Assembly (NCBI RefSeq): GCF_027023865.1
Contig: NZ_JALVUC010000007.1
Span: 1-40,827, forward strand
Length of the DNA stretch: 40,827 nt
Direction: 5' to 3'
Origin: Thermococcus sp.
GTDB lineage: Archaea > Methanobacteriota_B > Thermococci > Thermococcales > Thermococcaceae
The notes under the pieces: generated by a model
Seen by the model: the letters and a program-made list of their open reading frames with translations, nothing else
Databases searched by the model: none
What the model was told of the DNA's origin: nothing
In this document: positions 3,586-40,582 of the stretch, one piece after another
How the letters are laid out: the number at the start of each line of letters is the position of its first letter
How positions within the stretch are numbered: the first letter of the stretch is position 1
Translations under genes and position numbers: made by a program

Positions 3586-5562
3586 TCACCACCCCAGTGC
3601 AATTCCTATATGCCATAGCAGGATTCCCACCACCGAGGCCACGGTTATCATGTAGGCCGTTGCCAGTGTCGCCCACTTCCAGTTGCTCTCTCCCTTTATG
3701 GCACCGATGGTGGCTATGCACGGAATGTAGAGCGTCGTCACTGCTAGGAGCACGTAAGCCTGTAGGGGAGTCATCGCGTTCCTTATGGCCGATTCACTGC
3801 CGTAGAGTACTCCATAGGTTGATATGACGTTCTCCTTAGCTATGATTCCAAAGAGCAGGCTCACTGCGGCCTTCCAGTCGAGACCCATTAACCGCATAAA
3901 CGGCTCGAAGAAGTGCCCTATCTGCTCGGCGTAGCTCCTCCCGGTTCCAACGGGGGCTGGGTAGTTGCTGAGGTACCAGATGAATATTGCCCCGAGCAGG
4001 ATAACCGTTCCAGCTTTCCGGACGAACTCCTTGCTCCTCTCCCATGAGTGGATGAGCAGGCTCCTCCAGCTGGGTATAAGGTATTCAGGAAGCTCGATGA
4101 CGAAGGGACTGCTCTCCCCTGAGACGAAGCGGCTCACGAGCCATGCTGAAGCGAGGGCAACCGCGAAGGCCAACATGTAGATGCTCACCGCGACGAGGGC
4201 CTTTTCCTTACCAAAGAATATGGCGGATATGAAGCTTATAACGCTCAGCCTCGCGGAGCAGGGGACGAAGGGGTTAACGAACATGGTTACTAACCTGCTC
4301 CTCTCATCGTCCAAGTTCCTTGCTGACATTACCGCCGGAACGTTGCACCCGAGACCGAGTATGAGGGGGATTACCGCCTTCCCCGGGAGGCCGAATCTCC
4401 TGAGTATCCCTTCCATCAAAACGGCCACCCTCGCCATGTACCCAAGGTCCTCAAGGAAAGTAAGGACGAAGAAGAGGAGGAAGACGAGCGGGAAGAAGCT
4501 GAGCACCATTCCAACGCCGCCTATGACTCCGTCCACTATAAGACCCCTAAGGGCTCCGTTGGCTATATGCGGTGCCAGCCAGTTGCCAAAGAGGGTGAAC
4601 GCATTAGCCAGCCAGTTCTGGATTGGCAAACCGACGGCGAAGGTGAACTTGAAGACACCGTAGAACACCAGGGCTAGGGCTATGAAACCGTAAACGGGGT
4701 GGACGAGGAGCCTATCAAGACGGTCGGTAAAGTTATCCCTGGAGGCCTGGCCATAGCGCATGAACTCGTGGGTTAAGCCGTCGATGAACTCGTATTTCTG
4801 GCCGGCTATGATGAGGTCCATCGCCTTTCCGTAGCGCTCTTCCACCTCGTTTATGTGCGTCATGACGCTCTCAAGCCCTTCCTCCCCGAGGTAACGTTCG
4901 ACAAGCTTTATAACCTCATCATCGCGCTGGAGGAGCTTTATCGCCAGCCATCTAAGGGGGTACTTTGCGGCCAGCTTTGTCCCCTCCAGAACCCGGGAGA
5001 TGTGCTCTATCTCCCTCTCCACTTCAGGGTCGTAGTGAGGGATTATTGGAGTTTCCTTGATTTCACCATGGGCCACTTTCTGCGCTATTTTCTTGAGTTC
5101 ATCCAGTCCCATACCGTCTTTGGCATCTAGTGGAACGACCGGAACGCCCAGAATCTTGGACATCTTCTCGATGTCGATCACGATGCCCTTCTTCTCCGCC
5201 AGGTCGATCTTGTTGAGGGCGATGACCATGTTCCTGAGTCCCATCTCAAATAGTTCCATTGTGAAGTAGAGGTTCCTCAGGATGGAAGTAGAGTCCACGA
5301 CGTTCACAACGACGTCGGGGTTTCCATTGAGGAGGAAGTTTCTAGCGACGAGTTCGTCAACTGAGTGGGCGGTTAGGGAGTAGGTTCCGGGAAGGTCAAC
5401 GACGAGAAAGCGCTCACCCTTGTAGTCAAAGGCTCCCTCCTTCTTCTCAACGGTGACGCCAGGCCAGTTACCGACGTGCTGGTGCATCCCGGTTAGGGCA
5501 TTGAATATCGTTGTTTTGCCGACGTTGGGATTTCCCGCCAGGGCAATAACCTTCATGGCCAT
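3586..5562 (-). CDS. feoB: Ferrous iron transporter FeoB
   Basis: A 658-residue inner-membrane Fe(II) transporter. The N-terminal G domain has G1 GNPNVGKT (residues 10-17), a G2 region around VGNWPGVT (30-37), G3 DLPG (56-59) and G4 NKID near 118. A helical GDI-like linker follows. The membrane part has two Gate-like blocks: one with LGCNVPAVMSARNL and FVNPFVPCSARL, both containing conserved Cys thought to lie on the iron path, and a C-terminal one with TLYIPCIATIGA. Length is close to that of other archaeal FeoB proteins. The start ATG 5562 is preceded by GGTGGT. It lies 12 bp after feoA and overlaps the start region of feoC, so the three are surely one operon, probably iron-repressed through the box at 5814. 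Confidence 0.96.
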   Translation of the reverse strand: MAMKVIALAGNPNVGKTTIFNALTGMHQHVGNWPGVTVEKKEGAFDYKGERFLVVDLPGTYSLTAHSVDELVARNFLLNGNPDVVVNVVDSTSILRNLYFTMELFEMGLRNMVIALNKIDLAEKKGIVIDIEKMSKILGVPVVPLDAKDGMGLDELKKIAQKVAHGEIKETPIIPHYDPEVEREIEHISRVLEGTKLAAKYPLRWLAIKLLQRDDEVIKLVERYLGEEGLESVMTHINEVEERYGKAMDLIIAGQKYEFIDGLTHEFMRYGQASRDNFTDRLDRLLVHPVYGFIALALVFYGVFKFTFAVGLPIQNWLANAFTLFGNWLAPHIANGALRGLIVDGVIGGVGMVLSFFPLVFLLFFVLTFLEDLGYMARVAVLMEGILRRFGLPGKAVIPLILGLGCNVPAVMSARNLDDERSRLVTMFVNPFVPCSARLSVISFISAIFFGKEKALVAVSIYMLAFAVALASAWLVSRFVSGESSPFVIELPEYLIPSWRSLLIHSWERSKEFVRKAGTVILLGAIFIWYLSNYPAPVGTGRSYAEQIGHFFEPFMRLMGLDWKAAVSLLFGIIAKENVISTYGVLYGSESAIRNAMTPLQAYVLLAVTTLYIPCIATIGAIKGESNWKWATLATAYMITVASVVGILLWHIGIALGW

Positions 5563-6391: not shown

Positions 6392-7180
6392 ATGCCTTCG
6401 GTTGAAGATGCTGTAAGAGAACTTCAGAGGTTCTCGCGTGAGTCAGGGATAGATAAAAGGCAAATCCTCATCATGTTCTCAGGCGGAAAGGACAGCTCAC
6501 TAGCACTCTACTTGCTCAAAGAGGCCGGTTTAAACGTCTCGGCATTGACCTTCTTCCACCGCTGGAGCTGGGGGGAACCACTGAACTGGGCAATGAGATT
6601 CACCAGAAAGCTCGGTGTCGAGCACTTTCTGGTCGACATAACGGAGGGCCTCCTTAGGGAGGCAATGGGAAGGAAGGGACCGGTCTGCATTAACTGTAAG
6701 AAAGCCATGCTCTGGAACGCCAAGTGGTTCGCGATAAACAACGGCTTCGACATCCTTGTCAAGGGCGACAACGCCAACGACAAAATCATAGGTGCCCTAC
6801 TGAACCAGTGCAAAGGAGATATAAGGCTCTGCAACATCCCAAAGATTGGAATGCCCATACTGAGGCCCCTGATAAAATACACAGCCGAGGAGGTAAAAGG
6901 CCTCACTGAAGAAGCTGGCATAAGACCATACCGCATGTACGAGCACGCAAGGAGACGGCAGTGGCGCGAGGGCTGCCCCCTTCAGTACATAGACCGTGAG
7001 GAGATTGTAACGGAGAAGTTGATGGATCTGGTTTATGGGGTGAACTACAAGGTAAGTAGGATAGCCAGAAGGAAAAAGGTTCGCGTCAGCGTCCGCGTTC
7101 CTAGCTTTGAGGTGATGTGCTGGGGCTGCGACGAGGAAACGCTCCATGAGGTTAAGTCTGTCATTGAAAGGTTTAAATGA
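6392..7180 (+). CDS. PP-loop ATP pyrophosphatase with CxxC motifs
   Basis: A 262-residue member of the PP-loop (adenine nucleotide alpha-hydrolase) superfamily. The ATP-pyrophosphatase loop FSGGKDSSLALYLL lies at about residues 29-42. Downstream are CINCKKAM near residue 95, CKGDIRLC, GCPLQY and a C-terminal CWGCDEE, so there are two CxxC pairs plus extra cysteines. Enzymes of this fold adenylate a substrate, often to thiolate or amidate tRNA bases or cofactors (TtuA, LarE, QueC, NadE types). The Cys pairs suggest Fe-S or zinc binding as in tRNA thiolases, but the order of motifs does not let me assign it to one. It appears leaderless. It is followed closely by the PP2C gene. Confidence 0.7.
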   Translation: MPSVEDAVRELQRFSRESGIDKRQILIMFSGGKDSSLALYLLKEAGLNVSALTFFHRWSWGEPLNWAMRFTRKLGVEHFLVDITEGLLREAMGRKGPVCINCKKAMLWNAKWFAINNGFDILVKGDNANDKIIGALLNQCKGDIRLCNIPKIGMPILRPLIKYTAEEVKGLTEEAGIRPYRMYEHARRRQWREGCPLQYIDREEIVTEKLMDLVYGVNYKVSRIARRKKVRVSVRVPSFEVMCWGCDEETLHEVKSVIERFK

Positions 7181-7208
7181 TGGTCTCAAATTTTTGAATG
7201 GTGATGAT

Positions 7209-7940
7209 ATGAAGGTTACGTGCACACCCAACCTGTGCTCATTAACACACATCGGGGCGAGGGAGAACAACGAGGATAACTATGCCGCTGTTAAGCTCAG
7301 TGATGCCTACTACATAGCGGTCGCAGACGGTATGGGCGGACACGCCGCGGGTGAGGTTGCCTCCCAAATGGCCGTTGAAACCGTCACAGGTTTTATCCGG
7401 GAGAACTACAGGACTGAAATGGACTGGCCCCACCTAAAGTTCCTTCTAAGGCTCTCCCACGAGCTTGCCCACTCCCGGATAATCGAGAATGCCGTTGGCG
7501 AAAGGATGGGAATGGGGACAACTCTGATCTCCACCATCATAAGGGGCAATGAGGTCTTCGTGACCAACACGGGAGACAGCAGGGCGGCCCTGATAAGAAG
7601 GGGCAAAACCGTCGCCAGAACAATCGATCATTCCTTCGTCCAGAGGCTCATTGAAGAGGGCCAGATAACCGAGGAGGAAGCCTTTGGACATCCCGCATCG
7701 AACTATATCACCAGCGCGATAGGCGGGGGAAAGCCGCTCCGAGTTGACCTCTACCACTGGCTGGCGAAGCCAGGGGACGTGCTCCTCATGAGCACCGATG
7801 GGCTGCACGACTACGTCCGCTGGAATGAGGTAGAAGCGCTCTCAAAGGGAGGAAGCGCCCGGCAGATAGCCTTTACCCTTCTCAAAAGGGCCCTCGGTGT
7901 GACTAGGGACAACGTCACAATAGCCGTCTGGAAGTGGTAG
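7209..7940 (+). CDS. PP2C-family serine/threonine protein phosphatase
   Basis: A 243-residue metal-dependent protein phosphatase (PPM). The motifs are in family order: RENNEDN (residues 18-24), DGMGGH (40-45, metal-binding Asp), a central GMGTTL, TNTGDSRAALIRRG, DHSFVQRLIEEG, STDGLHDYV (second metal-binding Asp) and RDNVTIAV at the C-terminus. It is soluble, with no membrane segment. It would remove phosphate from Ser/Thr proteins; the partner kinase is not in the window. ATG 7209 follows GGTGAT and removes a 21-residue extension overlapping the PP-loop gene. Its stop is one base before the start of the next gene, so the two are almost certainly co-transcribed. Confidence 0.88.
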   Translation: MKVTCTPNLCSLTHIGARENNEDNYAAVKLSDAYYIAVADGMGGHAAGEVASQMAVETVTGFIRENYRTEMDWPHLKFLLRLSHELAHSRIIENAVGERMGMGTTLISTIIRGNEVFVTNTGDSRAALIRRGKTVARTIDHSFVQRLIEEGQITEEEAFGHPASNYITSAIGGGKPLRVDLYHWLAKPGDVLLMSTDGLHDYVRWNEVEALSKGGSARQIAFTLLKRALGVTRDNVTIAVWKW

Positions 7941-7941
7941 G

Positions 7942-8937
7942 ATGAAACTCCCACCGGGAAAGCTAAGGAACGAGGTTTTAAAAGAGGTAATCTTCCCAAA
8001 CCTCGGCGTTGAGGATGCCAGAGTGGTCTACGGGCCAAGGGAGGGCTTTGATTCGGCCGTTTTAGAATACGATGAGGAACACTACCTTGTGATTGCCACC
8101 GACCCAACACTAGGCGTTCCAAGGGAGGCCTTCGGTTTCTTCATCTACCACTTTGCCGCGAGCGATGTGGCGGTTTTTGGAGCCAGACCGAGGTGGCTCG
8201 TCGTTGACCTTCTCTCTCCTCCCGGAACCTCCAAGAGGTTCTTAGAGGATGCGATGAAGGCCCTGAACGAAGAGTGCAGGTATTACGGAAGCACAATAAT
8301 CGGCGGCCATACCGGCGTTTACCCGAGAGTTTCAGAACCCACAGCTACCACCACGGTGATGGGCCTTGTTAAAAGGGATGGGCTTAAGCTCCCGCTCGCA
8401 AAACCTGGCGACAGGATAGTCGTGACGACCAAAGTTGGCCTTGAGTTCGCGGTCTCGGCGGCATATTTTAAGGAGGAGGAACTTTCGAGAGTCATATCCA
8501 AGAAGGAACTCATGCGCCTTAAGCGTTCCTTTTACTTTGAGACCGCCGTTTTAGATGCACTGGTTGCAACACCCCTCGTCAGGGGGATGCACGACGCAAC
8601 TGAAGGCGGCTTAACGGCCCTTCACGAGATAGCGGACAACTCGGGCGTTGGCTTTAGGGTTTATGCCGAGAATTTAGTCATTGACCCTCTCGTTAAGAAG
8701 GTTTTGGACTTCTACGGGCTGGAGCCTTGGAGCGTATCCTCGACTGGGACGCTGATAGCAATAACCCCTCCAGAAAAATCTAATGAGCTAATTACAGAGT
8801 TAAACAGAAATGGAATCTTAGCGTTTGAGATAGGAGAGTTCACGAAGGACAAGGAGAGGGTTTTAGTTAAAAATGGAGAGGAGAGACCGTTTCCGGAGTT
8901 CAAAGAGGATCCCTATATAGGGTTTTATGGGGTATAG
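7942..8937 (+). CDS. AIR synthase/HypE-like ATP-binding protein
   Basis: A 331-residue protein of the PurM/HypE/ThiL/SelD fold. Visible features are DPTLGVPREAFGFFIYHFAASDVAVFGARPRWLVV in sense (Asp and Ala-Ser-Asp-Val residues that hold Mg-ATP), GGHTGVYP and the C-terminal half motif VRGMHDATEGGLTALHEIA. These are close to HypE, which dehydrates a thiocarbamoyl group for hydrogenase maturation. It lacks a C-terminal PRIC-type cysteine tail (it ends YIGFYGV), so it is not a canonical HypE. Archaea often carry such AIR-synthase-related paralogues with unknown substrate. It starts one base after the PP2C stop. Confidence 0.75.
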   Translation: MKLPPGKLRNEVLKEVIFPNLGVEDARVVYGPREGFDSAVLEYDEEHYLVIATDPTLGVPREAFGFFIYHFAASDVAVFGARPRWLVVDLLSPPGTSKRFLEDAMKALNEECRYYGSTIIGGHTGVYPRVSEPTATTTVMGLVKRDGLKLPLAKPGDRIVVTTKVGLEFAVSAAYFKEEELSRVISKKELMRLKRSFYFETAVLDALVATPLVRGMHDATEGGLTALHEIADNSGVGFRVYAENLVIDPLVKKVLDFYGLEPWSVSSTGTLIAITPPEKSNELITELNRNGILAFEIGEFTKDKERVLVKNGEERPFPEFKEDPYIGFYGV

Positions 8938-8975
8938 GTACAACTCAGATATTTGACCCCAAGCAGTAGAAAATC

Positions 8976-10049
8976 TCACTTCACCCTGAATCTCAGCAGA
9001 GCCGCTAAACCGCCCAGAGCCTTGAGCTTCTCCCCTCCCTCGTGCTCCGAGCTGATAACCACAACCTCGCCGCGCGAGTAACGGACGGCATCCATTAGTC
9101 CTTCTATCTTACCCCTGTGCTCTCCTTTAAGGAGTTCATCAAGCACCAAAAGTGTCTCAACCGCCCCGTAGTTTGTCGCCTCCTCAACCTCTTTAAGGCC
9201 GTACGCTGACAGGCCATTGTTCCTCGCGATGTTCTCGAGAACCCTCTCGACGAGCTGTATCTCCCTCGCAACGCGGTTCTCGTGGTAGACCTTCTCAACA
9301 GTCCCGCGTTTTATGACCTCGTAGATGCCCGTTCTTCCGGTCACACTAGTGTCTTCGATGACGACCTTCTTTGCCAGCTCAGGGTAGCTCTCGCGCAGGA
9401 ACTTGTGGAAGTCCTCCTTGACAAAGCCGGGGCCGGCAACAATGGCCTTTTCGACGTTCTCGCGGTTCATTATCTCTCCCATAGTTTTTGCAACGTCGTG
9501 GAAGAACCTTTTCTCCTCGCTCTCACGGTCGGTGTTGTAGCGCTTCCCACCGAGGTTGTGGTGTATGCTGTTGAGGAGTTCAACCCCGTACTCTCTCACG
9601 ATCGCCATATCTGCCTCACCGTCGTCGATGACGACTATCATCACCCTCGCCCTTTTGGAAGCCTCAACGGCCTCATTTAACCTTTCTATGTGGTGCTCCT
9701 TCCAGTGGGGCTTCTCTATCGTTACGACCGTTCCCTCTTCAATCGCTATCGTGTGATACTTGCCGAGGGGAACATCCTCCCTGCTAGCGTAAATTATTGG
9801 CCCCGTAACCCTAACCTGGTTGGCAAACTTATGGAAGTTTATCTTCTCGGCTTTAACGCCGAGGAAGACCGGGATGACCTCGACCTTTTCAGCACGGAGT
9901 GAGTCGCTCCTCTGGCTCTGCTTGCGGAGAGTTTTGGCATAAACAACGTCACCGGGGTCAATTATATGATAAAGGTGCCAGAGATCATCCAAAGTCTCGG
10001 CCTTAACCTTCATCTTGCCCTCCCTGACGTCCTGGTGGATTATCTGCAC
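8976..10049 (-). CDS. pelA: Pelota (Dom34) mRNA surveillance and ribosome rescue factor
   Basis: A 357-residue eRF1-like protein that binds the empty A site of stalled ribosomes and, with ABCE1, splits them. The N-terminal Sm-like domain begins MQIIHQDVREGKMKVKAE and contains LDDLWHLYHII and GDVVYAKTLRK. The central domain has IEEGTVVTIEKPHW, VIDDGEADMAIVREYGVE and KIDIS-like replacement HNLGGKRY. The C-terminal L30e-like domain has NYGAVETLLVLDELL and VVVISSEHEGGEKLKALGGLAALLRF. No GGQ loop is present, as expected for pelota. The start is GTG after a strong AGGGGGG. A TATA-like CTTTTTAAACG at about 10078-10088 suggests its own promoter. Confidence 0.95.
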   Translation of the reverse strand: MQIIHQDVREGKMKVKAETLDDLWHLYHIIDPGDVVYAKTLRKQSQRSDSLRAEKVEVIPVFLGVKAEKINFHKFANQVRVTGPIIYASREDVPLGKYHTIAIEEGTVVTIEKPHWKEHHIERLNEAVEASKRARVMIVVIDDGEADMAIVREYGVELLNSIHHNLGGKRYNTDRESEEKRFFHDVAKTMGEIMNRENVEKAIVAGPGFVKEDFHKFLRESYPELAKKVVIEDTSVTGRTGIYEVIKRGTVEKVYHENRVAREIQLVERVLENIARNNGLSAYGLKEVEEATNYGAVETLLVLDELLKGEHRGKIEGLMDAVRYSRGEVVVISSEHEGGEKLKALGGLAALLRFRVK

Positions 10050-10098
10050 CCTCTTACCCCCCTAGAAAGAATGGAGAAGGCGTTTAAAAAGATGATAG

Positions 10099-10506
10099 TT
10101 ACATAAAGCCCTTCATCATTCTGAACGTGTTAAGCTTGTATTTGATCTCAATGTGCCTCATTCCAAGAGTGCGCATAAGAAGGGAGTTTGCCTTGGCTCC
10201 CATGCGCATTATTTCGTCTCCCCGGTACTTTATTATCACCGTCTTGCCCTGGGATGCAAGATCCTCAGCGTAGAGCTTCATACTGTTTATCATCTTCTTT
10301 TTCTCTTCCGTGTCATCCTCTTCCGATCCCATGAGGGGTGAAATCACGGCCATCAACTTCCTCATCTTTTCCGGGTCGTGGATGTCCATTATGACATCCT
10401 CTCTAGTTAACGTAAAAGAGTCCTCTCCAACTGATATCGTAACCGAACCGCTGTGGATAGCATTCTGGAAGTTTAGTAAGATTCTAAAAAGGGAATGAAT
10501 GTCCAT
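10099..10506 (-). CDS. Hypothetical protein (135 residues)
   Basis: Not recognised. It is a soluble, Met-rich protein of 135 residues. The N-terminal part is amphipathic helix plus strand (SLFRILLNFQNAI, then SVTISVGEDSFTL). A very acidic segment follows in the middle (GSEEDDTEEKKK), and the C-terminal part ends with a basic amphipathic stretch (RHIEIKYKLNTFRMMKGFM). No metal-binding cysteines and no membrane helix. It begins 12 bases after the stop of the small gene upstream, so the two form an operon that reads toward pelota. Confidence 0.65.
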   Translation of the reverse strand: MDIHSLFRILLNFQNAIHSGSVTISVGEDSFTLTREDVIMDIHDPEKMRKLMAVISPLMGSEEDDTEEKKKMINSMKLYAEDLASQGKTVIIKYRGDEIMRMGAKANSLLMRTLGMRHIEIKYKLNTFRMMKGFM

Positions 10507-10518
10507 GGAACCACCGCT

Positions 10519-10728
10519 TCATCCCTTTTTGAGAGGCTCGACCCTGAACCTTACTTCACCGTCCATTTTGAAATCTCTGAAGCTCATCCTTACCTCGTTT
10601 TCGCTCAGAACCTGCAATATAACTTCCACAAGCCCCAGCCCAGACTTTGAGATACTGGACATAGAAGAAAAATTGATTCCAGATTCGTTCATCTTTTCCA
10701 TTCCCTCTCCAATACCGCTAACCGACAC
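10519..10728 (-). CDS. Small hypothetical protein (69 residues)
   Basis: Not recognised. A 69-residue protein with a Ser/Gly-rich N-terminus (SGINFSSMSSISKSG) and a C-terminal strand-helix pattern (EVRMSFRDFKMDGEVRFRVEPL). The start is GTG 10728, preceded by GGGGGTGGT. A TATA-like TTTTAAAAA lies near 10781-10790 on the minus strand, about 55 bases upstream, so the pair of small genes has its own promoter. It is shorter than most genes here, but the ribosome site, promoter and tight spacing to the next gene support it as real. Confidence 0.6.
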   Translation of the reverse strand: MSVSGIGEGMEKMNESGINFSSMSSISKSGLGLVEVILQVLSENEVRMSFRDFKMDGEVRFRVEPLKKG

Positions 10729-10816
10729 GGTACCACCCCCTTTTTTCTAACGTTCTCTTAGGTAAACTTGCGACAGAGTGTTTTTAAAATTTATTGAGAA
10801 GAGGTTAGAAAAAGGG

Positions 10817-11863
10817 TCAGATAAGTTCCCTTTCCGTCTTGGTCAGCCTTCTCGCACCGTTCTCCGTGATGACTATAGTGTCCTCTATGCGAACTCCACC
10901 AAACTTCGGCAGGTAGATGCCCGGCTCGACGGTTACCACCATTCCGGGTTTGAGAAGCGTCTCGTCAAACTGGCTCACCCTCGGCCACTCGTGTATCTCC
11001 AGCCCAACGCCGTGCCCCGTTGAGTGAATAAAGTAATCGCCGTAGCCGTACTCCGCTATGACGTTCCTGGCGATGGTGTCAATCTCCTTTGCTGTTATTC
11101 CCGGTCTTGCCGCTTCGACGCCCTTTTTCTGGGCCTCGAGGACGATCTCATAGATTTCCCTCTGCTTTTCATTTGGCGAACCGACGACGATTGTGCGCGT
11201 CATATCCGAGTGGTAGTGCCTGTAAAGTGCCCCCTCATCGATAACGACGAGGTCGCCCTTATCTATCCTCTTGTCGCTTGCTATTCCGTGGGGTAAAGCG
11301 GAACGCCATCCGCTTGCGATTATTGTGTCAAAGGCCGGCTTCTCGGCACCGTTCATCTTCATGACGTACTCCATCTTTGCCGCTATCTCCCTCTCGCGCT
11401 TGCCCTCGCTTATCTCCTCCAGAGCGGCCATCATGGCCTGGTCTGCTATCCCACAGGCGGCCTCAATCATCTTTATTTCCTCGGGTGTCTTGATTATGCG
11501 AAGCTCCTTGATAACCTCGTCCACGGCTATGAAGTCCTCGACGCCAGCATTCTCTTTGAGGGTCTGAAGCGTTGAAAAGCTCGTTTTTCCCTCTATACCA
11601 AGTTTCCTGAGTTTAAATGAAGAAAGTCTCTCGTAAAGCTCTTTTCCAGTCTTAAACTTCTCAACTGGTACCTTCGATGTCCTCATAGCTTCCTCGTATT
11701 CAAGCTCCGGAACAATGAAGACCGCGTCGTCCAGAGTAACGACGAGGTAGCCCCCCAAGACGGGGGAGGAACCTGTAAAGTAGAAGAGGTTCTCATGGGA
11801 CATCATGAGAACACCGTTGAGTTCCTTTTCCGCTATAAAATCTCTGAGCTTTTCAATCCTCAT
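10817..11863 (-). CDS. pepQ: Xaa-Pro dipeptidase (prolidase), M24 family
   Basis: A 348-residue cytosolic dipeptidase that cleaves Xaa-Pro dipeptides with two metal ions. The N-terminal creatinase-like domain includes ENLFYFTGSSPVLGGYLVV. The C-terminal pita-bread domain includes AFDTIIASGWRSALPHG, the metal Asp pair in VVIDEGALYRHYHSDMTRT, the His in HSTGHGVGLEIHEWP, and Glu residues in VTVEPGIY and GGVRIEDT. ATG 11863 gives 348 residues, the length of the P. furiosus enzyme as I recall it; GTG 11872 would add three residues. The ribosome site is GGTGGTG. One small oddity is a Glu after the first metal Asp (VIDEG), where Pyrococcus has Leu. Confidence 0.95.
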   Translation of the reverse strand: MRIEKLRDFIAEKELNGVLMMSHENLFYFTGSSPVLGGYLVVTLDDAVFIVPELEYEEAMRTSKVPVEKFKTGKELYERLSSFKLRKLGIEGKTSFSTLQTLKENAGVEDFIAVDEVIKELRIIKTPEEIKMIEAACGIADQAMMAALEEISEGKREREIAAKMEYVMKMNGAEKPAFDTIIASGWRSALPHGIASDKRIDKGDLVVIDEGALYRHYHSDMTRTIVVGSPNEKQREIYEIVLEAQKKGVEAARPGITAKEIDTIARNVIAEYGYGDYFIHSTGHGVGLEIHEWPRVSQFDETLLKPGMVVTVEPGIYLPKFGGVRIEDTIVITENGARRLTKTERELI

Positions 11864-37129: not shown

Positions 37130-38137
37130 TCACTCTATCTTGGCTCCACACACCGGGCAGAACTTCGCTCCTTCCGGGACTATGTGACCGTTGGGGCAGC
37201 GCTTTATCTCGTGACCGCAGTAGGGGCAGAAGCGGGCGCCCTTCGGAATCGGCTTCCCACAGTAGGGGCATATTTCCTGCCCCTGCGCCGCAGGCCCTGC
37301 CGGGGCGGCGGGCTGGGCTGATTGCGCCGGGGCCGCTGGAGGAACTCCGCCGCCGGCATATTGCTGTGCAGGCTGGGCCGGTTGAGCGGGCTGCATGAGC
37401 TGGGGTATCAGGACCATGCCTGTCCCGACGGCCGCGCTCCCGCTCTTCCCGAGCTCTGCCGCGACCTGCTTTGCAGTGTCCATCTGCATTACGCTCTGGG
37501 CGTTGCCCGTCTGCATTATCCAGAAGAGCCTCTGGCGCCACTCGTCGGTCGTATTTACTCCCTCGATTTTGACATCGATGAGTTCAAGGCCGAGCCTGCG
37601 GAAGTCCTCGATGAGCTTGACCTTGACCTGCGTGCTCACCATGTCGAGGTTCTGGAAGAGGTCAACGATTGAATAGCTTGAGAGGTGCTTCATCATGCCC
37701 TCGTTGAAGTACGCCCTGATGAACTTGGTGACGTCGGCGGTGTCGTAGAGACCCTGGCCGCCAACCACTTCCGTTATGAAGAGAACAGGGTCTGCCACTT
37801 TGAACCAGTAGACGCCGTAGTACTTGACCGGGGCAAGCTCCTTTGTCTGCGTCCCCCCACCGTATCTCCCCTGGAACTGCTTCATGCTGACAAAGATGAC
37901 CGTCGCCTTGAAGGGGCTGTTGCTCCCACCGACGAGCTTGTAGAGGAGCGGGAGGTTCTGGGTCGTCAGGGTATGTCTTCCCGGCCCAAGGACGTCGTAG
38001 ATTTTCCCGTCGCGCATGAAGACTGCCACTTCGTACTCGTGGACTATAAGCTGTGCGCCCCATTTTATGACCTCGTTTGGGTACCTCCAGATTATCTCGT
38101 CTTCTCCGGGGTTCACCCATTCGACTACCTGCACCAT
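37130..38137 (-). CDS. SPFH/YdjI-like protein with C-terminal zinc ribbons
   Basis: A 335-residue protein. The N-terminal ~240 residues are SPFH-like: MVQVVEWVNPGEDEIIWRYP, VFMRDGKIYDVLGPGRHTL and LDVKIEG-like LELIDVKIEGVNTTDEW are close to YdjI ('virion core protein-like') of Bacillus. No membrane segment. After a Pro/Ala/Gln-rich linker (residues ~245-285) come two zinc ribbons, CPYCGKPIPKGARFCPYCG and CPNGHIVPEGAKFCPVCG. ATG 38137 is preferred over GTG 38146 on ribosome-site spacing. It is the last gene in the four-gene operon and overlaps the end of the helical protein gene. In bacteria YdjI-like proteins work at membranes with PspA. Confidence 0.75.
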   Translation of the reverse strand: MVQVVEWVNPGEDEIIWRYPNEVIKWGAQLIVHEYEVAVFMRDGKIYDVLGPGRHTLTTQNLPLLYKLVGGSNSPFKATVIFVSMKQFQGRYGGGTQTKELAPVKYYGVYWFKVADPVLFITEVVGGQGLYDTADVTKFIRAYFNEGMMKHLSSYSIVDLFQNLDMVSTQVKVKLIEDFRRLGLELIDVKIEGVNTTDEWRQRLFWIMQTGNAQSVMQMDTAKQVAAELGKSGSAAVGTGMVLIPQLMQPAQPAQPAQQYAGGGVPPAAPAQSAQPAAPAGPAAQGQEICPYCGKPIPKGARFCPYCGHEIKRCPNGHIVPEGAKFCPVCGAKIE

Positions 38138-38138
38138 C

Positions 38139-38633
38139 TCACTCACCCGCCGCGAAACTCATCCTCTTGTCCAGGACCTCCTCGAAGGAGTTCAGCTTGT
38201 CGTCGAGGTCGAGGACGGCCATGCCAAGGGCCTGCGGGTTGGCAATCCCCCCGTTGATGGCCCCGACACCGTCCCGTATTCCCTCGGCCAGCTCTATCAT
38301 CTTCGCGTCGTACTCGATGAGCTTCTTTATCTCGTCTTCCCTGAACTTTATCCTGTCGAAGTAGCCCGCGTAGCCGGCCTCAGCGTGCCTGACCCTGCTC
38401 TCAAGGGGCATAAGCTTCTTTCTCATGGTGTCTATCGCCACCAGCTGGGGGCAGCTGACCATCGCACACCTCTGCAGAGAGCGCTCCATCTCACGCCGGG
38501 CCTGTGCGAGTACCTCGGCAACCTTGCCGCGGACGAGCCTGTCGTCCTCCCTCAAAAGCTCCTTCTTCTTGTAGCCGTGAAAGCCCGGAATAACGAGCTC
38601 AAGCTTTTCAACTATCGAGGTTTCCTTTCCCAT
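38139..38633 (-). CDS. Helical protein of the SPFH operon, unknown
   Basis: A 164-residue, almost all-helical protein. It begins SIVEKLELVIPGFHGYKKKE, followed by long amphipathic helices (LVRGKVAEVLAQARREMER, RIKFREDEIKKLIEYDAKMIEL, LDLDDKLNSFEEVLDKR). IPG.+GYK followed by a charged helix is, as I recall it, common in proteins next to SPFH genes in bacteria. It could stand in for PspA (ESCRT-III fold), but I see no direct similarity. The start ATG 38633 is preceded by GAGGTGGT; its stop overlaps the start region of the SPFH gene. One oddity is a CAMVSCPQ pair of Cys near residue 57. Confidence 0.6.
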   Translation of the reverse strand: MGKETSIVEKLELVIPGFHGYKKKELLREDDRLVRGKVAEVLAQARREMERSLQRCAMVSCPQLVAIDTMRKKLMPLESRVRHAEAGYAGYFDRIKFREDEIKKLIEYDAKMIELAEGIRDGVGAINGGIANPQALGMAVLDLDDKLNSFEEVLDKRMSFAAGE

Positions 38634-38649
38634 GATACCACCTCCCCCA

Positions 38650-39546
38650 TCACAGGACCCTGAAGTAGACGTTGCCCCTGTCCGTCTTCATTACCTGACT
38701 CACCGTCCTCCTGCCCACGGAGCCCCTCACGAATATCCCGGCCCCTCCAGCCGCGCCTGCGACGAGACCGCCGATGACTCCCCATGCGGTGCTCAGGGCG
38801 GCGGAGGCGATGAGCCCCAGCAGAACCCCGACTCCGATGACACCGCCGCCAAGGAGCGTGGCCTTCTTCCTTGCCCCAGACATCAGCGGGTACTCGCCCC
38901 GTATCACCCTCCCGTCGGTGCCGTCAACGAAGTTCACGAAGGTCTCCCCTCCGTACTCATAGTGGACTTCCCAGAGGGGGTAGTGGACGAGACCCTGGAA
39001 CTTGACGGTGAGGTCAAGCTCCCCCGCGCTGCTGCCCTCCTCGCTGGCCTCTTTCCTGAGGGCGCTTTCAAGCCGTGAGTGCGCTATCCCCTCCGCCTCT
39101 TCCCTCTTCATCTCCGGCTCGTGATACTTCCCCTTTTTGACGGTGGCCTCGTCGAAGAAGTGCTTCCCCCTAACCGGGAACGGGTAGTTCATCAGCAGGG
39201 TTTTGAACGGCGATCCTACCGGAATTCCGAGGAATTCCACTTCCTCAACGCTCTCCTTAACCCTGCTCTTCCCGTGAAGGTAGAAGAAGTAAACCGGAAC
39301 CCAGTAGAGCTCCTTCTTCAGAACCTTCGCGCCGGTTATGTCCGCGGGGGCGCCGTACTGCCTCGAGAGGAACTTGAGCAGCAGCCCGGCGGGATCCTTC
39401 TTTATGGGTGGGAAGAAGAAGTGCTCCTCCTGAACTTCCGAGCCCGTGTGGATGTGGAAAGTGGTTCCGCAGTAAGGGCAGGTCGCCACGCTCACCGTGT
39501 CGGGAACCTTAAACGTTGCCGAGCATGTGGGACACGTTACCTCCAT
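38650..39546 (-). CDS. Zinc-ribbon membrane protein (YdjG-like), paralogue 2
   Basis: A 298-residue protein: a zinc ribbon at the N-terminus (CPTCSATFKVPDTVSVATCPYCG), a soluble domain with a strand-rich YWVPVYFFYLHG block and HYPLWEVHYEYGGETFVNFVDG, then two Gly-rich membrane segments near the C-terminus (LGGGVIGVGVLLGLIASAAL, AWGVIGGLVAGAAGGAGIFV). It is a paralogue of the first gene of the operon with the same order of parts. ATG 39546 follows GGGGTGAGGG. The zinc ribbon probably faces the cytosol. Confidence 0.65.
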   Translation of the reverse strand: MEVTCPTCSATFKVPDTVSVATCPYCGTTFHIHTGSEVQEEHFFFPPIKKDPAGLLLKFLSRQYGAPADITGAKVLKKELYWVPVYFFYLHGKSRVKESVEEVEFLGIPVGSPFKTLLMNYPFPVRGKHFFDEATVKKGKYHEPEMKREEAEGIAHSRLESALRKEASEEGSSAGELDLTVKFQGLVHYPLWEVHYEYGGETFVNFVDGTDGRVIRGEYPLMSGARKKATLLGGGVIGVGVLLGLIASAALSTAWGVIGGLVAGAAGGAGIFVRGSVGRRTVSQVMKTDRGNVYFRVL

Positions 39547-39551
39547 CTCCC

Positions 39552-40541
39552 TCACCCCAGAACGCCCTTCCGCTCACGCTCAACGCGCTGGCCTTCGAGG
39601 GCCTTGCTTCCAGTGAACCAGCTGAGGGCCGCACCACCGCCCATGGCCAGAACCGCGAAGATGGAGGAGCTGGCAAAGGTCGCCGCTCCAAAGGCTGCGA
39701 CCAGTATGCCGATCCCGGCACCCGTGAGGTACTGGGCCCTCCTGAAAATGTTCATCGGCTCCGTTGCCGCAACGCCCTTTCCGTCCCAGCCCGCGAAGAC
39801 GACGTGGAATATCGAATCGCCGTAGCGGTAGTAGACCGTCCACATCGGCAGGAGGAGCAGCTTAACGTCCTGCGGCTCGTCGGCGTGGACATCGAAGCGC
39901 TCTATCCTGTCCGACTTTGCTAGGAAGCGGTTCCTTATTATGTCGATTGCATCCTCGCGCATCGTGAGGACGGCGTGCTTTTCATCCATCTCCGTGTTCA
40001 GGATTTCGAGCTTTATCCTGCCCCACTCACCCTCCTCCAGATCGAGGAGTCTCTTCCCCCCCGGCAGGGTCTTGGAGAAGTGGGTTACCAGGTCATCAAC
40101 CCCGAAGCTCTTCACCTGCCTCCTCGCCGAACCGAGGAGCCGCATATCCTCGTCCACCTTCTCCGTGTAGTGCCTTTCAACGGTGTGACAGTGGGTGTTC
40201 CCCTTTGAATCAGTATGACACTCCTCCTCCCGCTTCATGTAGCGAACCGTACCGTAAACGTGGACCTTTCCGTTCCAGTATGGAGCGTAGTGCCCCTCGA
40301 TGTCGACGACCTGGAGGTCTTCCTTTATCCTCTTTAGATCGAAGTCGTGCTCGACCCTGTCCCAAAAGGCTTTGGCTATGGCGTTTTTATCTAGGGATGG
40401 GACGATGAGAATGCCCTCTGTCTTCAGGTTCCCGCTGATGTGGTTCGGAAAACCGCAGTAGGGACATACCGCGACTATCGTTTCCGGCGAAACCTCAAGC
40501 GGTGCACCACACCGCTCACACTTAAAGCCACCTTCCTCCAT
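39552..40541 (-). CDS. Zinc-ribbon membrane protein (YdjG-like), paralogue 1
   Basis: A 329-residue protein and first gene of the operon. N-terminal zinc ribbon CERCGAPLEVSPETIVAVCPYCG; a soluble domain with YAPYWNGKVHVYGTVRYMKR and PMWTVYYRYGDSIFHVVFAG (the same block as in its paralogue); a His/Cys-rich loop ECHTDSKGNTHCHTVERHY near residues 110-128; and two C-terminal membrane segments (TGAGIGILVAAFGAATFA, IFAVLAMGGGAALSWFTG). ATG 40541 has GTGGT upstream. A TATA-like CTTAAATAGA at about 40572-40582 would start transcription near 40553. Confidence 0.65.
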   Translation of the reverse strand: MEEGGFKCERCGAPLEVSPETIVAVCPYCGFPNHISGNLKTEGILIVPSLDKNAIAKAFWDRVEHDFDLKRIKEDLQVVDIEGHYAPYWNGKVHVYGTVRYMKREEECHTDSKGNTHCHTVERHYTEKVDEDMRLLGSARRQVKSFGVDDLVTHFSKTLPGGKRLLDLEEGEWGRIKLEILNTEMDEKHAVLTMREDAIDIIRNRFLAKSDRIERFDVHADEPQDVKLLLLPMWTVYYRYGDSIFHVVFAGWDGKGVAATEPMNIFRRAQYLTGAGIGILVAAFGAATFASSSIFAVLAMGGGAALSWFTGSKALEGQRVERERKGVLG

Positions 40542-40571: not shown

Positions 40572-40582
40572 ATCTATTTAAG
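40572..40582 (-). promoter_or_regulatory. TATA-like element of the SPFH operon
   Basis: ACCTTAAATAG on the minus strand, about 30-40 bases before the first start of the four-gene operon. A second AT-rich GTTTATATC (~40556-40564) is too close to the start codon. Confidence 0.45.

Follow-up and report, generated by a model that had tools for sequence, protein, structure and literature searches.

A stretch of 40,827 nucleotides from Thermococcus sp. (contig NZ_JALVUC010000007.1; hereafter the window) carries near its end, at 37130–40541, a four-gene operon in which a YdjI-type SPFH protein is encoded directly downstream of a 164-residue protein, referred to here as HEL. HEL represents a previously unnamed family, a four-helix partner that co-travels with SPFH in archaea and in some bacteria. 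The four open reading frames lie on the minus strand and are transcribed in the order ZR4, ZR3, HEL and SPFH, the first two encoding zinc-ribbon membrane proteins. SPFH proteins are near universal, and their archaeal partners and tasks are largely uncharacterised. Starting from directly established linkage, co-occurrence, family relations and predicted folds, we propose, giving it about an even chance, that the operon encodes an SPFH membrane scaffold that works independently of PspA, in which HEL is a dedicated cytosolic partner and ZR4 and ZR3 serve as membrane anchors.

HEL and SPFH are linked across archaea and in some bacteria

At all 44 assessable loci of the genome collection, the gene that immediately follows HEL on its strand encodes SPFH, a count that overlaps with the Thermococcus set rather than adding to it independently. 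The same arrangement holds at 37 of 40 Thermoproteota loci, at 19 of 29 in Chloroflexota and at 10 of the 24 assessable ones in Asgard archaea, about half of the loci in these last two groups having a flank of only 1.5 kb; across all these sets some places are represented twice. Within the Thermococcaceae, HEL and SPFH matches fall in the identical 51 of 94 genomes, ZR4 is present in 49 of those 51 plus one incomplete genome (the three genome lists were matched by eye), and the four-gene order is retained at every one of the 30 loci fetched. An earlier note on this DNA had proposed a four-gene SPFH/zinc-ribbon operon and had staked it beforehand on co-occurrence; the four genes do occur together in other genomes, and the unit they form, membrane proteins included, is real and conserved. 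The remaining two HEL-bearing genomes (G046 and G055) hold a divergent HEL–SPFH pair in which a SHOCT domain replaces the ribbons (seen completely in G046); next in order come genes for a TPR-like protein and for a ribbon protein of 503 residues. This layout recurs at two Thermoproteota loci (L188 and L192).

Beyond the Thermococcaceae the surroundings vary. Bacterial HEL–SPFH loci adjoin genes for DUF2207 membrane proteins and a small protein with a transmembrane (TM) segment and a ribbon, and several TACK lineages encode, between SPFH and the ZR pair, a protein of about 110–130 residues with up to four TM helices. An FAD/2Fe-2S dehydrogenase gene next to HEL at three Chloroflexota loci and a radical SAM gene next to it at L031 and L094 were set aside as unrelated neighbours.

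A scan of the collection with a three-sequence HEL alignment (a nine-sequence one proved too divergent) found relatives in Thermococci, Thermofilaceae, Desulfurococcales, Brockarchaeota, Thaumarchaeota, Lokiarchaeota, Helarchaeota, Sigynarchaeota and Methanoperedenaceae and, among bacteria, in Chloroflexi and some Actinomycetota. The family occurs in about 106 of 200 Thermoproteota genomes (E < 1e-12), in nearly half of 119 genomes of the Asgard phylum Lokiarchaeota, and in 29 of 201 Chloroflexota genomes (E < 1e-16; about 15%). Thirty-eight diverse members share two motifs, PG[FY]xGYKxKExxRExDxxxR and HAxxGYxGxFD; HEL itself matches no Pfam family, and none is common to the 38. The NCBIfam model NF047596 (Leptospira LIMLP_15305) is homologous to HEL, at E = 9.3e-14 to a relative at locus L036 and 0.0028 to the window protein, but it is a narrow Leptospira model whose cut-off of 210 bits no archaeal member reaches (17.5 bits for the window HEL, 51.7 for the best archaeal relative); it also matched none of the control genomes and was thus unusable for a bacterial survey.

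The AlphaFold2 model of HEL (mean predicted local distance difference test score, pLDDT, 86.5) is a four-helix bundle with helices at residues 24–58, 64–82, 99–129 and 133–161, so that what the earlier note had called simply a helical protein can be specified as a four-helix bundle in a confident model. In a bundle that runs up and down, both motifs and a C-terminal invariant arginine would be placed at the same end, which suggests one putative binding site. Foldseek returned no PDB match for the model at E ≤ 0.001, and membership of a family with a solved structure was rejected, the matches being weak ones to coiled coils and helical bundles. At four Lokiarchaeal or Sigynarchaeal loci (L056:5854–6522, L058, L059 and L095) HEL has an N-terminal zinc ribbon of its own, of the type that ends its SPFH partner.

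No relation of HEL to PspA or ESCRT-III was found

The earlier note had suggested that HEL might take the place of PspA, and had called for a comparison with PspA and ESCRT-III folds. Descent from either was rejected on family search, profile–profile comparison and fold. The Pfam PspA and Snf7 models match neither HEL nor its 37 diverse relatives; hhalign of HEL against 18 PspA sequences, one of which (L152) was possibly read in the wrong frame, gave a probability of 0.4%, the same as for shuffled columns; and the 50 best PDB matches of the HEL model include no PspA or ESCRT-III protein. The long helical hairpin of ESCRT-III was not found, the fold being instead the four-helix bundle, and a viral PspA/IM30 protein in a second structure library aligned with the model at a TM-score of 0.27 and a probability of 0.11.

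PspA itself appears to be missing from these archaea: none scored above the Pfam cut-off in 115 genomes of the phylum, the source genome included, with a model that was positive in nine of fourteen control genomes. Nor was Snf7 found above cut-off in 94 Thermococcaceae genomes, with a model that scored only weakly in one control. Since no PspA above cut-off was found in the phylum, HEL might replace PspA in function. Two or more Chloroflexota genomes, among them G132 and G150, encode HEL together with PspA.

A YdjI-type SPFH protein and a pair of zinc-ribbon membrane proteins

Residues 18–206 of SPFH match Band_7_1 (PF13421; E = 2.3e-32, 112.8 bits against a curated cut-off of 24) and residues 292–333 form a double zinc ribbon (PF12773, 8.6e-11), joined by an Ala/Pro/Gln low-complexity linker, with no hydrophobic or TM segment. 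YdjI of Bacillus subtilis likewise consists of an SPFH domain, a low-complexity region and a zinc finger near the C-terminus, lacks a membrane anchor, and requires YdjG/H for membrane localisation (PMC8581546); the description of the SPFH product as YdjI-like is therefore upheld. Plasmids and phages yielded distant SPFH proteins only.

ZR3 and ZR4, described beforehand as two paralogous zinc-ribbon membrane proteins, are indeed true paralogues (profile–profile probability 99.5%, E = 1.7e-22 over 281 columns). In each lineage, TACK archaea and Methanoperedenaceae included, one protein is clearly nearer ZR4 and the next nearer ZR3, so that the two are old orthologous families whose split predates the sampled archaeal lineages. 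In the ZR3 model (pLDDT 84.7) the ribbon and an alpha/beta part are accompanied by a helical hairpin at the C-terminus; because the hairpin has basic residues on either side, the ribbon and soluble domain probably face the cytoplasm. The soluble part of ZR3 matches no solved structure, its sole match being that of the ribbon part to IBR/RING2 domains, and neither HEL nor the ZR3 soluble domain matches an unrelated known family; a match of that kind would have spoken against the operon as proposed.

The further claim that three of the four proteins carry TFIIB-like ribbons stands as regards the ribbons but not their type: TF_Zn_Ribbon is absent among hits to the operon proteins at E up to 1, and the best matches are to Zn_ribbon_4, LysW, RpoP and double zinc ribbon types. 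In Pfam, SPFH is assigned double zinc ribbon/Zn_Ribbon_1 and ZR3 and ZR4 have sub-threshold generic ribbon matches only. Apparent internal TGA codons in some ZR4 relatives proved to be alignments that overran the terminal stop, with no recoding.

Gene trees of 30 loci show no supported conflict between ZR3 and ZR4, both of which disagree with the trees of HEL and of SPFH; on HEL and SPFH the window falls with L002, but on ZR3 and ZR4 with L021–L023 and L028. Mean pairwise DNA identity among Thermococcus genomes is 0.72–0.73 over ZR3/ZR4 (38650–40541) versus 0.85 over SPFH. The ZR pair thus seems to have been exchanged or recombined as one cassette, as expected for interacting partners; since the trees of HEL and SPFH disagree with one another as well, recombination affects the operon in general.

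Many Thermococcus genomes encode elsewhere a second, divergent ZR4–ZR3 pair (L129–L135, for example L130:6503–8493), with 28–36% identity to ZR4 and no adjoining HEL or SPFH; it was seen only in genomes with the main operon, except for two incomplete ones (G053 and G061), and the radical SAM and TIP49 genes beside it were judged unrelated. One uncultured archaeon (L089:677–5763) has two tandem ZR4–ZR3 pairs and an extra ZR3 upstream of HEL–SPFH.

Operon layout and promoter

ZR4 and ZR3 overlap by 4 bp and HEL and SPFH by 8 bp; a gap of 16 bp separates ZR3 from HEL. Two of the three junctions thus overlap and the third is nearly closed, and a conserved TATA-type box supports the single promoter of the earlier note. 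The start of ZR4 at ATG 40541 is kept in ten relatives (an extension of the frame to GTG 40550 is possible), and a TTAAATA-type box is conserved about 33–40 nt 5' of ZR4 in ten loci, the window copy being placed slightly out of register by the aligner. Because the start is conserved and the box lies upstream of it, transcription of all four genes from a single predicted promoter is well supported. Farther upstream, on the same strand, a gene from 40643 to past the window end encodes what we take, from its translation, to be a HAD-type phosphatase.

Table 1. Features of the operon in the window
Feature	Position	Strand	Basis
ZR4, zinc-ribbon membrane protein, gene 1	39552..40541	-	Open reading frame; ATG start conserved; orthologues in relatives
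ZR3, zinc-ribbon membrane protein paralogous to ZR4, gene 2	38650..39555	-	Open reading frame; paralogy; model pLDDT 84.7
HEL, 164-residue four-helix protein, gene 3	38139..38633	-	Open reading frame; AlphaFold2 model pLDDT 86.5; family in archaea and bacteria
SPFH, YdjI-type protein with C-terminal double zinc ribbon, gene 4	37130..38146	-	PF13421 2.3e-32; PF12773 8.6e-11; no TM segment
TATA-box-like element TTAAATAG upstream of ZR4	40574..40581	-	TTAAATA-type box similarly spaced in ten relatives
ZR4 N-terminal zinc ribbon, C11-C14...C29-C32	40455..40520	-	Cysteines invariant in 18 sequences
ZR3 N-terminal zinc ribbon, C8-C11...C26-C29	39469..39534	-	Cysteines invariant in 22 sequences
ZR3 C-terminal hydrophobic helical hairpin, residues 226–279, predicted membrane anchor	38719..38880	-	Two model helices; hydropathy
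HEL motif 1, PGFHGYKKKELLREDDRLVR, residues 16–35	38529..38588	-	Near-invariant in 38 diverse relatives
HEL motif 2, HAEAGYAGYFD, residues 83–93	38355..38387	-	Conserved in 38 diverse relatives
SPFH (Band_7_1) domain, residues 18–206	37529..38095	-	Pfam PF13421
SPFH C-terminal double zinc ribbon, 3' of the Ala/Pro/Gln linker	37139..37276	-	Pfam PF12773, PF13240

Relation to known SPFH systems

The nearest parallel is the pspA-ydjGHI system of B. subtilis, a small operon with a YdjI-type SPFH protein that has no TM segment and ends in a zinc ribbon (Scholz et al. 2021, PMC8581546; Ravi et al. 2024, PMC11237479). Firmicutes operons of PspA, TPM, band-7 and ribbon proteins are described by Ravi et al. 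(PMC11237479). Both systems include a membrane partner with an N-terminal ribbon, ZR3 and ZR4 resembling YdjG in layout (ribbon, soluble domain, TM). By contrast, the Thermococcus operon has no PspA, an unrelated four-helix protein adjoining SPFH instead, and has two paralogous ribbon membrane proteins without a TPM-domain YdjH; the search for TPM was confined to the four operon proteins, and none matched. The idea of an archaeal pspA-ydjGHI counterpart therefore survives in the YdjI-like SPFH protein and its conserved unit with membrane proteins, but not in PspA or YdjH. As these two defining features, PspA and TPM, are missing, we place the operon outside that system, as a variant of SPFH-based membrane modules that may work like it.

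Two other arrangements bear comparison. The archaeal ESCRT loci of Methanobacteriales (Meth_adaptin; Makarova et al. 2024, PMC10936438) also encode an SPFH protein ending in a zinc ribbon, but hold Vps4, ESCRT-III and adaptin-like proteins, of which none was noticed beside our operon or matched by its four proteins, no search having been aimed at Vps4. SPFH–NfeD operons (Hinderhofer et al. 2009, PMC2636767) likewise join an SPFH gene to a dedicated small partner gene, but NfeD, with its membrane/OB-fold architecture, has no relation to HEL, and the SPFH subfamilies are others. A literature search that covered few subscription journals found no description of the HEL–SPFH pair or of the four-gene set.

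A proposed membrane scaffold and its alternatives

By analogy we infer the topology, contacts, oligomerisation and stress role of such a module. SPFH, being soluble and of the YdjI type, would form oligomers at the membrane's cytoplasmic face; since it shares with YdjI an anatomy without a TM segment, it would need an anchor, as YdjI needs YdjG/H (PMC8581546). The co-inherited ZR4 and ZR3, with C-terminal TM hairpins and putatively cytoplasmic ribbons and soluble domains, would recruit or seat it. HEL, its conserved motifs probably gathered at one end of the bundle, would bind SPFH and either control its assembly or connect clients, and the overall effect would be to preserve the integrity of membrane patches or membrane complexes. 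The adjacency of HEL and SPFH, their presence in the same 51 of 94 genomes, the Lokiarchaeal HEL with an SPFH-type ribbon, the hairpin-anchored ribbon proteins, the recombination of the ZR pair as a unit and the membrane-protein neighbours in bacteria all argue for this model. Several observations weigh on the other side: HEL does not adjoin SPFH at a third of Chloroflexota loci and at over half of the assessable Asgard ones, many HEL–SPFH pairs have no ZR pair nearby, and the operon is dispensable, since the 43 of 94 Thermococcaceae genomes without it are healthy.

Could HEL instead be a PspA analogue, forming a repair polymer at damaged membrane to which SPFH and the ZR pair recruit it, and making the operon a functional pspA-ydjGHI counterpart? 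The partners are Bacillus-like (a ribbon SPFH protein and a ribbon membrane protein; PMC8581546, PMC11237479), and one helical protein stands in PspA's place in a phylum of which 115 genomes yielded no PspA above cut-off. HEL nevertheless has no sequence, profile or fold relation to PspA or ESCRT-III; we consider the idea unlikely, and weaker than the model in which HEL controls a scaffold that the ZR pair seats, because a compact four-helix bundle, unlike the hairpin that PspA polymerises, is the wrong fold for an ESCRT-III-type polymer and because HEL and PspA coexist in the two Chloroflexota genomes. Quality control or assembly of membrane proteins is also improbable in our estimation: SPFH would cap a client or protease, HEL would serve as an adaptor, and the ribbons would contact clients or partners. 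It would suit the general role of SPFH domes, exemplified by HflK/C capping FtsH, as well as the constant HEL–SPFH pairing and the DUF2207 and TM-ribbon neighbours in bacteria, but no protease or chaperone gene recurs next to HEL–SPFH in the loci read. A defence or conflict module at the membrane, which patchy presence (51 of 94 genomes), loss scars and cassette-like recombination of the ZR pair might recall, we think very unlikely in view of a wide, old, single-copy distribution, a fixed chromosomal site, next to one and the same upstream gene at the loci inspected, and the lack of any PADLOC model matching the four operon proteins; two weak matches of a Lokiarchaeal relative to long coiled-coil proteins were ascribed to composition.

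Returning to the scaffold seated by the ZR pair, a broader proposal, which we hold tentatively and somewhat short of an even chance, is that HEL is the founding member of a family of SPFH partners that has gone unrecognised, and that HEL–SPFH with ribbon membrane proteins constitutes an ancient membrane-maintenance system, free of PspA and ESCRT-III, in archaea and some bacteria. A constant SPFH partner in about half of the sampled Thermoproteota and Asgard genomes opens a way to study the control of an SPFH scaffold, in lineages relevant to the origin of eukaryotic membranes. Since PspA was not found, the operon also allows one to ask whether a YdjI-type scaffold serves some purpose beyond PspA recruitment.

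Loss and decay of the operon

Three Thermococcus genomes retain of the operon only a scar, in which the N-terminal ribbon of ZR4 is fused directly to the C-terminal ribbon of SPFH, with the junction at repeated CPYCG codons (TGYCCCTACTGCGG): L126 ~7147–7359 (G028), L127 ~4760–5017 (G052) and L128 ~7787–8022 (G027). The junction falls at the first SPFH ribbon in G052 and at the second in G027 and G028; ribbon repeats were therefore the end points of two or more separate deletions, each removing all four genes. In a further genome (L046, G069; ~6618–11482) the operon is decaying, with an insertion of about 1.4 kb that splits ZR4 and two TAG stops in the SPFH frame.

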